A DNA stretch of 35,695 nucleotides from Candidatus Uhrbacteria bacterium CG10_big_fil_rev_8_21_14_0_10_48_16. Lineage in GTDB: Bacteria; Patescibacteriota; Patescibacteriia; UBA9934; GWF2-40-263. This document shows, one piece after another, positions 25,127 through 31,367 of this stretch (its first letter is position 1; each line of letters opens with the position of its first letter). Location of the stretch: the NCBI GenBank assembly GCA_002793515.1, contig PFEU01000007.1, positions 1-35,695 on the forward strand, read 5' to 3'. The translations under genes were made by a program, and so were the position numbers. The notes beneath the pieces were generated by a model that saw only the letters and a list, made by a program, of their open reading frames with translations, searched no databases and was not told the origin of the DNA.

Positions 25127-26938
25127 ATGAACCAAGAAGAAAAGGATACCTTGTATATTCGAGCAAAGAAGCATGTCGAACACACATGTTTTTCTATTCG
25201 TCATTCCGTATCAGAAATCCGCAAGTCGATCGCAAAGAAACAGGATGAATACAAAACATTAGATCCCGGTGAGAAATTCATCTTCTCAAAACTCCTCCAG
25301 CACGAAGAGACACGTGCTTATGAGTTAGATCACCTCAAACGTTCTCCTTTTTTTGTAAAATGCGAAATCACTATTGATGGGGAGCAGAAGAACTGGTATT
25401 TTGGCAAGTTTGGTCACAAAGAGTCTGATATTTTCTCTTGGGTAACTCCGGCGGCTGCCATCCGATTTGAAACACCCGGTCATTTTTCTTACGTTCCGAA
25501 AGACAAGAAGATTATTCAAGGCCAATTGCACGCGAAAGATCAATACATGATCGTCGACGGGAAGATTCTCTTCTTCACGACGGAGTCCGAAGAGCATCCA
25601 CGCGAGCTTATTTACCAAGAACATTTTTCCGCTCGAAAAACAGGTTTTGTCCTGCCAGAGATCGTGGCTCAAATGGAGCGTGCACAGGACCAAGTGATTC
25701 GCGCCAGTCACGAAGGGCCATTTGTGATATCGGGGCCTGCAGGCTCAGGAAAAACAACCTTGGCCCTCCACCGTATTGCCTATCTTGTTCAATCGCCTGA
25801 AACGACCGAACGCTTCCCCCCTGATTCGATCATTGTGTTCGTTCAAGACGAAGGGACAAAAGATTACTTCTCACATATCCTTCCGGAACTTGGGATCGAA
25901 CACGTGACCATTACCACGTTTGCCCAATGGGCCATGAAGATTCTGAATAGACAAGACGTTGTGTTCGCGGAGAGAATCGGCGAAACAGAAGAAGAGCGAG
26001 ATCATTATGAGTTAGTGAAATTGAAAGTGTTGCAGTCACTCTCAAGCACTCCCTTAAAATCAGAGAAAGACATGTTTAAAACCCTTGAGCATGCCTACAC
26101 ATCATCCTTTTCTCCTGCACAGCAAACCCTTTTCAAACAGCAAGTTCGTGAACGAATTCTGGACCGCTTTGATCTGACGATCTTATTGAGTCTCATGCAT
26201 ACCACGTCAGGAGCACTCAGCATGATGAAGGAATATTATCTTGAACTCAAAAATGGAGCCTTGAAAAAGAAGATCGGGGCACTCCCCATCGGATACTCCC
26301 TTGTCGTGGTAGATGAGTTTCAAAACTACCTGCCAGAACAAATTCAGCTCATGAAAACCTGTAAGCACGATCAGCTTCCCTCCATGGTGTTTGTCGGGGA
26401 TATCGCTCAGCAGATACAGCTCGGAACACTTAAGAGTTGGTCAGAAATTGGGGAACAGATTGCGGACGAACGACTCGTGACGCTCAAAAAAGTCTATCGG
26501 AATACAAAAGAGATCCTCTCGTTTGTGAAGTCGCTCGGCTATCCCGTTCACATTCCATCACAAGTGAAGAGCGGAAAGCCTGTCCATGAAGTTCACACGC
26601 AAGATGCGCAAGAAGAAATTGCCTATATCCATCAACTGGCAGAAACGCTTGAAGATGGCCAAACGATCGGCGTTCTGTCGCGACATCGGGCGTACTTGGA
26701 ACCGTTTGTCTCTGCTTTTAAAGACAATAACTCCATACGCGTTTTTGACATCAAGGAAGCACAAGGTGTCGAGTTCGATATCGTCTGTCTTGTTGGTGTC
26801 CAAAAAGATACCTTTACTGCCCCAGAGGACCACCCCGAGAAACAACGCATTCTCAAAAACCTCCTCTACATCGCCCTCACACGAGCCATGTCCGAGTTGC
26901 ATATTCTTGGTAAGGAAAAACTAAAGAAACTCCGCTAA
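25127..26938 (+). CDS. UvrD/Rep superfamily 1 helicase, HelD (helicase IV)-like
   Basis: GPAGSGKTTLALHRIAYL, VVVDEFQNY, QGVEFDIV, LLYIALTRAMSELHI. Confidence 0.85.
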   Translation: MNQEEKDTLYIRAKKHVEHTCFSIRHSVSEIRKSIAKKQDEYKTLDPGEKFIFSKLLQHEETRAYELDHLKRSPFFVKCEITIDGEQKNWYFGKFGHKESDIFSWVTPAAAIRFETPGHFSYVPKDKKIIQGQLHAKDQYMIVDGKILFFTTESEEHPRELIYQEHFSARKTGFVLPEIVAQMERAQDQVIRASHEGPFVISGPAGSGKTTLALHRIAYLVQSPETTERFPPDSIIVFVQDEGTKDYFSHILPELGIEHVTITTFAQWAMKILNRQDVVFAERIGETEEERDHYELVKLKVLQSLSSTPLKSEKDMFKTLEHAYTSSFSPAQQTLFKQQVRERILDRFDLTILLSLMHTTSGALSMMKEYYLELKNGALKKKIGALPIGYSLVVVDEFQNYLPEQIQLMKTCKHDQLPSMVFVGDIAQQIQLGTLKSWSEIGEQIADERLVTLKKVYRNTKEILSFVKSLGYPVHIPSQVKSGKPVHEVHTQDAQEEIAYIHQLAETLEDGQTIGVLSRHRAYLEPFVSAFKDNNSIRVFDIKEAQGVEFDIVCLVGVQKDTFTAPEDHPEKQRILKNLLYIALTRAMSELHILGKEKLKKLR

Positions 26939-26973
26939 ACAAAAGACACGATCATGATGATCGTGTCTTTTGT
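26939..26973. terminator. Terminator between the helicase and tRNA-Glu (convergent)
   Basis: AAAAGACACGATCA tga TGATCGTGTCTTTT. Confidence 0.85.
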
Positions 26974-27048
26974 TGGTGACCCCAGGGGGAGTCGAACCCC
27001 CCTTTCCAGGATGAAAACCTGGCGTCCTAACCGATAGACGATGGGGCC
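26974..27048 (-). tRNA. tRNA-Glu (anticodon TTC), CCA encoded
   Basis: GGCCCCATCGTCTATCGGTTAGGACGCCAGGTTTTCATCCTGGAAAGGGGGGTTCGACTCCCCCTGGGGTCACCA. Confidence 0.95.
27027..27048. repeat. Direct repeat copy 1 = tRNA-Glu nt 1-22
   Basis: ctaaccgatagacgatggggcc, identical to 27331-27352. Confidence 0.97.
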
Positions 27049-27287
27049 GAATATTTGTCCTTGAGTTCCTTACGAATTCGGCCTGATTTTTTGATAAGGA
27101 TCTCTCGTTGTCTTGCTTCTCGCAAAGTTGAAAAGGTCTCCGTATGGACAAGTCTATACGGGATGTATGGCTTAGTCGAGCGAACCTTTCCTGCATTATG
27201 ATAATTCAAGCGAAGTGATACATCTTGAGTGCAACCAATGTACCACCTCCCAACAAGTTCACTTTCTATGACGTAGACGTGGTACAT
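27027..27287 (-). CDS. Small GIY-YIG nuclease-domain protein; stop codon lies inside the tRNA-Glu gene
   Basis: HVYVIES...WYIGCTQDVSLRLNYHNAGKVRST...EARQREILIKK; ends ...KYSAPSSIG* using GGT TAG of the tRNA D-loop. Confidence 0.88.
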   Translation of the reverse strand: MYHVYVIESELVGRWYIGCTQDVSLRLNYHNAGKVRSTKPYIPYRLVHTETFSTLREARQREILIKKSGRIRKELKDKYSAPSSIG

Positions 27288-27295
27288 AGGCGTCT

Positions 27296-27330
27296 CCGGC
27301 CTAAAGGCCGGACCAGGCCTTTAGGCCTGG
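27296..27330. repeat. Tandem palindromes CCGGCCTAAAGGCCGG and CCAGGCCTTTAGGCCTGG
   Basis: 6-bp and 7-bp stems with complementary loops TAAA/TTTA; can also form one longer hairpin CCTAAAGGCC ggacca GGCCTTTAGG. Confidence 0.95.
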
Positions 27331-27352
27331 CTAACCGATAGACGATGGGGCC
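27331..27352. repeat. Direct repeat copy 2 = detached 5' fragment of tRNA-Glu
   Basis: ctaaccgatagacgatggggcc, 22/22 identical to the intact tRNA 5' end. Confidence 0.97.
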
Positions 27353-27388
27353 TGATACATGAGGGGAATCTCATCAATAGGCGGCGGT

Positions 27389-27417
27389 ATCATAGAAAAA
27401 AAATCTTCGATCGTCAA
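27389..27417 (-). promoter_or_regulatory. Presumed original tRNA-Glu promoter, now upstream of the GIY-YIG element
   Basis: Minus strand TTGACG-17-TATGAT, ~30 nt before the tRNA 5' fragment. Confidence 0.65.
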
Positions 27418-30217: not shown

Positions 30218-30305
30218 AAAAGCCGAGCTAATAATAATCTCTATTTTAGTATAACACCCTAGGCTTCTTTGTTCTTCAGCCGAAACCAGGTAAACTGAAC
30301 GTACT

Positions 30306-31367
30306 ATGCCTACACAACCACAACACATGACCATTGAGAAATGGTTTTTTCTCCTCGTCATGGGAGTCGTTCTCTATCTTTTTTGGCAGATTATACAACC
30401 GTTCATTCTCGTTATTATTGTGGCAGGAGTCGTCACGGTCATTTTGTCGCCCATTGATCGACGCCTCAAAAAGCTCCTTAAACGTCCTCGTCTGAGCGCG
30501 GCCCTTCTCTCGATTGCCACATTCTTTCTGGTGTTCATTCCGTTGTTGATCATTCTGTTTCTTATGGTCACTCAGGCGTCTGAGCTTGTTCGAACCGCCA
30601 CAAATGACACGTCCTGGCTGGATCAGCTTAATCCTGCCACCTCCCCACTCATTCAGGCACTCCCTGAAGTTATCCAACAAGAAATCGTCACCATTGATGT
30701 TGGGGCGATTGGAAAGTCAGTGGCTTCTTGGGCGTTCGACAACATTGGAAACATTTTCTCCAGCTCAACAAAACTCATCCTCAATACCTTCATCTTTTTC
30801 TTGTGTCTCTATTATCTTCTTGTGAATCGAGAAAATCTCTACACAGAAGCACTGGCGATCTCACCATTAGACGACAAAACCGATGAGAAACTCCTAAAGC
30901 GCATCGTTAACACGATCCGTGGAGTCGTATTCGGCGTCCTTCTTGTTGCGCTCATTCAAGGAATCATTGCGGGAATCGGCATGACGATCTTCGGAGTCCC
31001 TGGGTCACTCCTTTGGGGTGCCCTCACGGCCATTGCGGGACTTGTTCCTCTTCTTGGAACGGCGGTCGTCCTTATCCCAGCGGTTCTCTATCTCTTTTTC
31101 ACCGGCTCAACCGCAAGCGCTCTAGGCTTACTCATCTGGTCGCTTGTATTCGTTAGCACCATCGATAACCTTATTGGTCCTCACCTCATCGGAGGAAAAG
31201 CCCACCTCAATTCGTTCCTCGTGCTTATTAGTGTCTTGGGAGGATTGACGGCTTTTGGCTCTGTTGGAGCTATTGCAGGACCAAGCATTCTCGCGGGGCT
31301 TCTTGGACTCATCGAACTCTACAAATCAGGGATTCTCACAACAGGAAGAATTCAAAGAAAAACATAA
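30306..31367 (+). CDS. AI-2E family transporter (PF01594-type permease)
   Basis: Eight-TM pattern, GxPGSLLWGALTAIAGLVPLLGTAVV, DNLIGPHLIGGKAHLN. Confidence 0.88.
   Translation: MPTQPQHMTIEKWFFLLVMGVVLYLFWQIIQPFILVIIVAGVVTVILSPIDRRLKKLLKRPRLSAALLSIATFFLVFIPLLIILFLMVTQASELVRTATNDTSWLDQLNPATSPLIQALPEVIQQEIVTIDVGAIGKSVASWAFDNIGNIFSSSTKLILNTFIFFLCLYYLLVNRENLYTEALAISPLDDKTDEKLLKRIVNTIRGVVFGVLLVALIQGIIAGIGMTIFGVPGSLLWGALTAIAGLVPLLGTAVVLIPAVLYLFFTGSTASALGLLIWSLVFVSTIDNLIGPHLIGGKAHLNSFLVLISVLGGLTAFGSVGAIAGPSILAGLLGLIELYKSGILTTGRIQRKT

Follow-up and report, generated by a model that had tools for sequence, protein, structure and literature searches.

The locus analysed here raises the question of how a small nuclease gene came to end inside a tRNA gene while a second copy of the 5' part of the same tRNA lies upstream of it. 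The best explanation, to which a probability of about 0.7 is given from sequence comparison, is that a mobile GIY-YIG nuclease element that targets tRNA genes, and would be a free-standing homing endonuclease gene, was inserted in the single tRNA-Glu(UUC) gene of this genome.

Layout of the tRNA-Glu locus

The locus occupies positions 27417-26938 on the minus strand of the window, that is, the whole 35.7-kb stretch of DNA that was analysed. Its features and neighbours are as follows:

28679-27456, minus strand: MFS transporter gene, 5' neighbour of the element
27389..27417, minus strand: promoter-like site TTGACG-17-TATGAT (10 of 12 consensus matches), the putative original tRNA-Glu promoter
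27331..27352, minus strand: displaced tRNA-Glu copy, nt 1-22, with no mismatch in the comparison with the intact tRNA
27295..27330, minus strand: 36-nt double palindrome in the D-loop of the displaced copy, with two 7-bp stems and 4-nt loops
27289..27294, minus strand: GACGCC, continuation of the displaced tRNA copy (nt 23-28)
27027..27287, minus strand: GIY-YIG nuclease ORF (86 aa, PF01541), whose last residues and stop are encoded by the tRNA
26974..27048, minus strand: intact tRNA-Glu(TTC) (anticodon UUC)
26938..26974, minus strand: 18-bp inverted repeat 3' of the tRNA, a probable terminator (similar hairpins follow the tRNA in relatives)
ending at 26938: UvrD-like helicase gene, convergent, the other neighbour

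The 3' end of the ORF reads AAA TAT TCG GCC CCA TCG TCT ATC GGT TAG, and its overlap with the tRNA covers tRNA nt 1-22. The original prediction was made for this locus alone, and its letters and coordinates all hold. It missed that the displaced copy, although exact over tRNA nt 1-22, does not stop at nt 22, as GACGCC (nt 23-28) resumes after the 36-nt insert, one base before the nuclease ATG. Identity to the tRNA breaks at nt -1 on one flank and at the palindrome on the other. The insert is the sole double palindrome of such a build within the window, and the tRNA is the sole TTC tRNA-Glu that searches found in the genome.

The 86-aa ORF matches PF01541 with E=2.2e-11 and 44.3 bits (cut-off 22.6), and Y5, Y16, G18, R26, H30 and E62 are among the residues invariant in 13 relatives. 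With this catalytic domain and the conserved Y, Y-x-G, R, H and E, the protein belongs to the GIY-YIG superfamily; NCBIfam gave it no name. A group I or II intron in the tRNA was considered and rejected, as Rfam finds only the tRNA above threshold at this locus and in 16 relatives. Because of this, and because the ORF is a lone nuclease domain, the gene counts as lying outside any self-splicing intron or intein. Unlike I-TevI, the protein has no evident separate DNA-binding domain, and it is much shorter than SegB; both points count against the homing reading. The solved structures nearest to it by sequence profile are the single-domain UPF0213 protein BH0048 (E=1.4e-13) and EF2693, followed by SLX1; neither UPF0213 proteins nor SLX1 are known as tRNA-nested mobile genes. 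SLX1 acts with a partner on branched DNA. As this structure-specific nuclease is among the nearest profile relatives, recognition of stem-loop-forming DNA is a thinkable, though speculative, route by which so small a protein might reach tRNA arms. Shine-Dalgarno-like motifs are rare upstream of the nuclease ORFs at all types of loci, and no inference is drawn from their absence.

Recurrence and apparent mobility beside tRNA genes

Homologues of the nuclease were collected by protein similarity only, in a first set of 59 related genomes, at order level (73 genomes) and in the wider class (192 genomes); these are draft assemblies, with flanks cut in some. The best matches in the first 59 genomes nearly all lie beside tRNAs, most with partial tRNA copies upstream. 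In total, 132 distinct GIY-YIG relatives were found: 64 are placed 5' of an intact tRNA at a distance of up to 150 nt (5' type) and 43 are placed 3' of one at up to 400 nt (3' type), on the same strand with rare exceptions (three opposite-strand tRNA neighbours in the order-level set, all more than 300 nt away). About one fifth of the relatives have no tRNA in view, in some cases because the contig ends, and this was counted against the homing reading. The tRNAs that neighbour 5'-type nucleases include those for Glu, Gln, Asn, Ser, Tyr, Thr, Trp, Leu, Gly, Phe, Arg, Met and Ala. When flanks of a few hundred bases are compared with the tRNA, a partial copy is present at 36 of 44 5'-type loci, against 0.3% of shuffled flanks and 6 of 50 3'-type loci. 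Most of these copies begin at or within a few bases of tRNA nt 1, and the most complete ones extend to nt 46-71. The arrangement is thus recurrent in many genomes and no local accident, which the original prediction missed: it belongs to an apparently mobile, tRNA-targeting element with relatives in many genomes. A chance meeting of an unrelated small ORF, a tRNA and a stray repeat would agree with the promoter match, which by itself is not significant (1 found, 0.9 expected), but it is refuted by dozens of loci against the 0.3% of the shuffled control and by the structural covariation of the insert, and we consider it negligible.

The same genome holds a second copy at tRNA-Glu(CTC) (G000:C15:107662, locus L002), decayed and with its N-terminal part lost; its build is the same and its stop lies again at tRNA nt 22. 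3' of this tRNA (L002 1694-2100), several remnants of its 3' part (nt 57-75) stand in tandem. Each ends in CCA followed by a terminator-like hairpin, and long imperfect hairpins, seemingly inserted in the T-loop, keep them apart. Break points in the T-loop, with copies ending in GGTTCG or remnants starting from nt 57-58, occur in L138, L182, L002, L055 and L113, and tRNA 3' remnants lie downstream in L104, L106 and L107. More complex loci also exist, such as a tandem GIY-tRNA-Thr-GIY-tRNA-Tyr (L107), two partial tRNA copies in tandem from which the nuclease is absent (L070), and a nuclease behind which a tRNA copy with two interruptions precedes the intact tRNA (L100 and L014). Among homologues in named records, L004 is from Harrisonbacteria and L003 from Stahlbacteria. 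In the latter (L003 2875-3750, Candidatus Stahlbacteria contig JAUWGT010000004.1), tRNA-Asn shows the same architecture, with two partial copies in succession and an intact tRNA flanked by one nuclease on either side; the record is named for another phylum, so transfer or misbinning is possible. Members of the 3' class (L130, L132, L114, L121, L029, L133, L139 and others) show an intact tRNA, often tRNA-Trp, and the nuclease 3' of it after about 80-360 nt, with a perfect palindrome (for example CGTCGNTCGCGANCGACG) directly after CCA, then GTGGCC/TGCCAC repeats, and few partial tRNA copies.

Integrases use tRNA arms as sites, and integrative islands usually duplicate the tRNA 3' part. The locus could be the leftover of a larger tyrosine-recombinase island, with the GIY-YIG gene as cargo and the partial tRNA copies as att sites. 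The partial copies do break in tRNA arms that integrases also use, and some loci have tRNA 3' remnants downstream. However, only about 300 bp separate the two copies, which leaves no room for a recombinase (27331-27048 is filled by the 86-codon GIY-YIG ORF alone), the copies are of the 5' part including nt 1, and the gene found is always the same small nuclease. We regard this origin as very unlikely.

A phylogenetic tree was built with the 132 nucleases over 79 columns, and many of its forks are weak. At 5'-type loci, tRNA identity requires 19 changes on the tree against 39.1 after shuffling (0 of 500 shuffles as low), while host family requires 34 against 39.5 (1 of 500 as low); the nuclease lineages thus track the tRNA type over the host family. 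The 3'-type loci are much less constant in tRNA type, with 23 changes against 27.4. The eight nucleases 5' of tRNA-Trp form one clade that spans two families, and the tree joins the nuclease of the window to a partner in another family (support 85/89). This pattern looks like that of a site-specific, horizontally moving gene. Regarding the features expected of a free-standing homing endonuclease gene, horizontal mobility appears in the poor tracking of host family, read from few columns and many weak forks, and a conserved target in a tRNA type that is largely constant per nuclease lineage and in element-free tRNA-Glu genes of the same genus, these empty sites belonging to other species and not to strains of one species. 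One same-genus genome (G001) has the intact tRNA without a nuclease, and its adjoining gene is 81% identical to the gene at 30294-31364 of the window; in another (G004), C-terminal codons of the nuclease precede tRNA-Glu at a contig end.

A domesticated host system, in which the nuclease would act on tRNAs or tRNA genes for the host and its placement in the tRNA transcript would have been selected for regulation, must be weighed against this. Conserved catalytic residues, the steady co-orientation with the tRNA and the very wide distribution (56 of the 73 genomes of the order) are all compatible with it. On the other hand, the gene is patchy at any single tRNA and is found beside many tRNA types, decayed and truncated copies exist, and the tree follows host family poorly, so this possibility is given little weight.

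According to the preferred reading of a mobile homing element, the nuclease would cut the same tRNA gene, within a tRNA arm, in an element-free chromosome, and repair from the element-bearing copy would install the element. The resident tRNA promoter and the 5' part of the tRNA would remain upstream, broken by the double palindrome and followed by the nuclease gene, and an intact tRNA would be regenerated directly downstream, so that the essential tRNA survives and is made from the nuclease transcript. Because the element would be flanked by tRNA 5' sequence on either side, the insertion would not be lethal. The local tRNA is matched by both copies, which a target duplication would explain no less well than co-conversion from a donor. 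Moreover, the intact tRNA downstream of the nuclease should remain a target for cutting, which counts against homing.

Promoters, a probable shared transcript and the stop codon

The 60 nt upstream of displaced copies and tRNAs were scanned on a scale of 12 points, a score of at least 9 being taken as promoter-like. Such a site precedes 68% of the displaced copies and 65% of element-free ordinary tRNAs, but none of the 28 intact tRNAs inside elements, and shuffled sequences give 5-6%; the window's own promoter starts 65 nt upstream, just outside the 60-nt span, and is excluded from the 68%. In same-genus G003, whose tRNA-Glu is element-free, TTGACGAATG...TATGATATTGCCG is found directly upstream of it (TTGACGA...TATGATAnnGCCG), compared with TTGACGATCG...TATGATACCGCCG before the window's displaced copy, a short homology; G022, from the same family, has a similar promoter-like site before tRNA-Glu. 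The capture of the tRNA promoter, as originally proposed, is supported by these percentages and by the G003 promoter. These promoter positions also support as probable the proposal that one transcript reads through the displaced copy, the palindrome, the nuclease and tRNA-Glu, and the only TTC tRNA-Glu found in the genome probably depends on this read-through. A start site right before tRNA-Glu would have argued against the original prediction, and the consensus scan found none.

The original prediction went further and suggested that maturation of the tRNA by RNase P would destroy the nuclease message by leaving a non-stop mRNA; each RNA could then either be matured into tRNA or serve to express the nuclease, but not both. 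The switch is possible at the window locus, where the stop lies in the tRNA and the intact tRNA has no promoter of its own in the scan, and the stop is also inside the tRNA at L002 and in 24 of the 37 5'-type relatives whose tRNA is no more than 60 nt away. In the other 13 of the 37, however, the stop lies at or before the tRNA start, and the stops inside the tRNA vary in position and frame (for example nt 10, 15, 22, 38 and 47). Because of this, the loss of the stop to RNase P is no conserved device of the family, and it is the promoter arrangement that recurs, not the stop overlap. tRNAs offer stops in several frames (U8-A9-G10 and UAA/UAG in the D-loop), and the nuclease has a short C-terminal tail ending near the tRNA, which would often meet one of them by chance. 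For this reason the overlap is more likely a by-product of the insertion boundary, with the loss of the stop to RNase P likewise a by-product in some members, and a regulatory fusion selected as such seems improbable, although less so than domestication. Competition in folding between the displaced fragment and the 3' half of the tRNA, also suggested before, is allowed by a thermodynamic model, which at many loci predicts pairing between the 5' strand of the displaced copy and the 3' strand of the tRNA (mean 0.57); the model has no distance penalty and ignores the order of folding during transcription, and this value was not relied on.

The palindromic insert and comparison with known systems

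A palindrome breaks the tRNA copy in nearly all 5'-type loci that bear one. It follows nt 8-16, 18-22 or 27-37 and is most frequent in the D-loop or the anticodon loop. About 15 inserts of 30 nt consist of two hairpins, each of 6 bp with a 3-nt loop, and the window's insert is a longer form, 2 x (7 bp + 4 nt). When 17 inserts were aligned gap-free, 99.0% of the cells were paired against 79.5 after shuffling, and 9 of the 12 stem pairs had changed on both sides. Stem covariation was 0.514 compared with 0.156 for shuffled data (0 of 500 as high) and was lost when the alignment was slid by one column. A strict hairpin sequence pattern has no match in this genome because the palindrome keeps its build and not its letters. 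Since one sequence version of the palindrome also occurs away from tRNAs in some genomes, the palindromes look mobile in their own right. A CCGGC...GCCGG double hairpin lies far from tRNAs in L073 (near 1500) and in L071 and L086 (near 1500), maybe in coding or intergenic DNA.

A role as folding insulator was discarded, as removing the palindrome in silico at 41 loci changed neither the predicted acceptor pairing of the tRNA (p=0.92) nor its mispairing with the displaced copy (p=0.46). As a guess, the palindrome may spoil the target in the displaced copy and shorten the direct repeat, so that recutting is avoided and deletion is hard. The operator of I-TevI is bound by the nuclease yet uncuttable, and by analogy the displaced copy could, again as a guess, act as a bindable, uncuttable operator.

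REP/BIME sequences with RAYT and the Rickettsia palindromic elements are mobile palindromic repeats. Like these, the inserts are short double hairpins scattered in genomes, also away from tRNAs; unlike them, the palindrome is a part of the displaced tRNA copy in almost all nuclease elements, its build being kept and its sequence changed.

Concerning nucleases, the nearest system in behaviour is SegB of T-even phages, a free-standing homing endonuclease of the GIY-YIG type encoded in the phage tRNA cluster. It is reported to cut inside tRNA genes, with homologues co-localised with many tRNA types in phages and a motif RAWTSGAAC (PMC13096335). In our own reading, this motif would correspond to the reverse complement of a T-loop sequence. 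The likeness lies in a GIY-YIG gene directly upstream of a same-strand tRNA; in phage T4 (L213 1674-2419), segB shares its strand with tRNA-Arg and ends 5 nt 5' of it, an order also seen in the 5'-type elements. SegB, however, has 221 aa compared with 86 aa here and is located in phage tRNA arrays, for which the text consulted mentions neither a displaced tRNA copy nor a palindrome (PMC13096335), whereas the element described here is chromosomal, encodes a single-domain protein, interrupts one tRNA gene whose promoter it takes over, and has palindromes. Phage origin was tried as an explanation and rejected: a tblastn search of 50,697 phage records, T4 included, gave no match at E<=1e-3 and no sequence link to the SegB family beyond the GIY-YIG domain. 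Two weak relatives are on viral contigs, with no tRNA in view.

GIY-YIG ORFs that are not group I or II introns have also been found within bacterial rRNA genes, inserted at the tops or bases of stem-loops (PMC11270868). They resemble the present element in being GIY-YIG ORFs in structured-RNA genes of bacteria of a similar general kind, but their target is rRNA, with tRNA unmentioned (PMC11270868), and here it is tRNA. No description of a tRNA-targeting homing element in bacterial chromosomes, or of GIY-YIG genes with tRNA genes in CPR/Patescibacteria, was found in the open-access literature searched.

The elements could tentatively, at somewhat less than even odds, form a distinct class of chromosomal mobile elements. 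In such a class, a minimal single-domain GIY-YIG nuclease would split tRNA genes at their arms, duplicate the 5' part and capture the promoter, with obligatory covarying 30-nt double hairpins and lineages specialised by tRNA type (a type-specific 5' class and a 3' class after the tRNA); essential tRNA synthesis would depend on transcription of a selfish gene, which the host could lose only by precise excision. If this is true, the tRNA genes of very small bacterial genomes harbour a large, apparently undescribed family of selfish nucleases tied to the promoters of single-copy essential tRNAs, a cellular counterpart to phage SegB, and this would explain why small GIY-YIG genes abound in such genomes. 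It would also pose two testable questions: by what means a GIY-YIG protein of a single minimal domain locates a tRNA gene, and what purpose the covarying palindrome serves in nearly every element.

Finally, a complete tRNA-Glu with a 30-nt double hairpin inside its anticodon is present in L104 (1196-1297, minus strand) and also in L077 and L089; in L104 it adjoins the intact tRNA-Glu and the nuclease, and Rfam still scores it as a tRNA.
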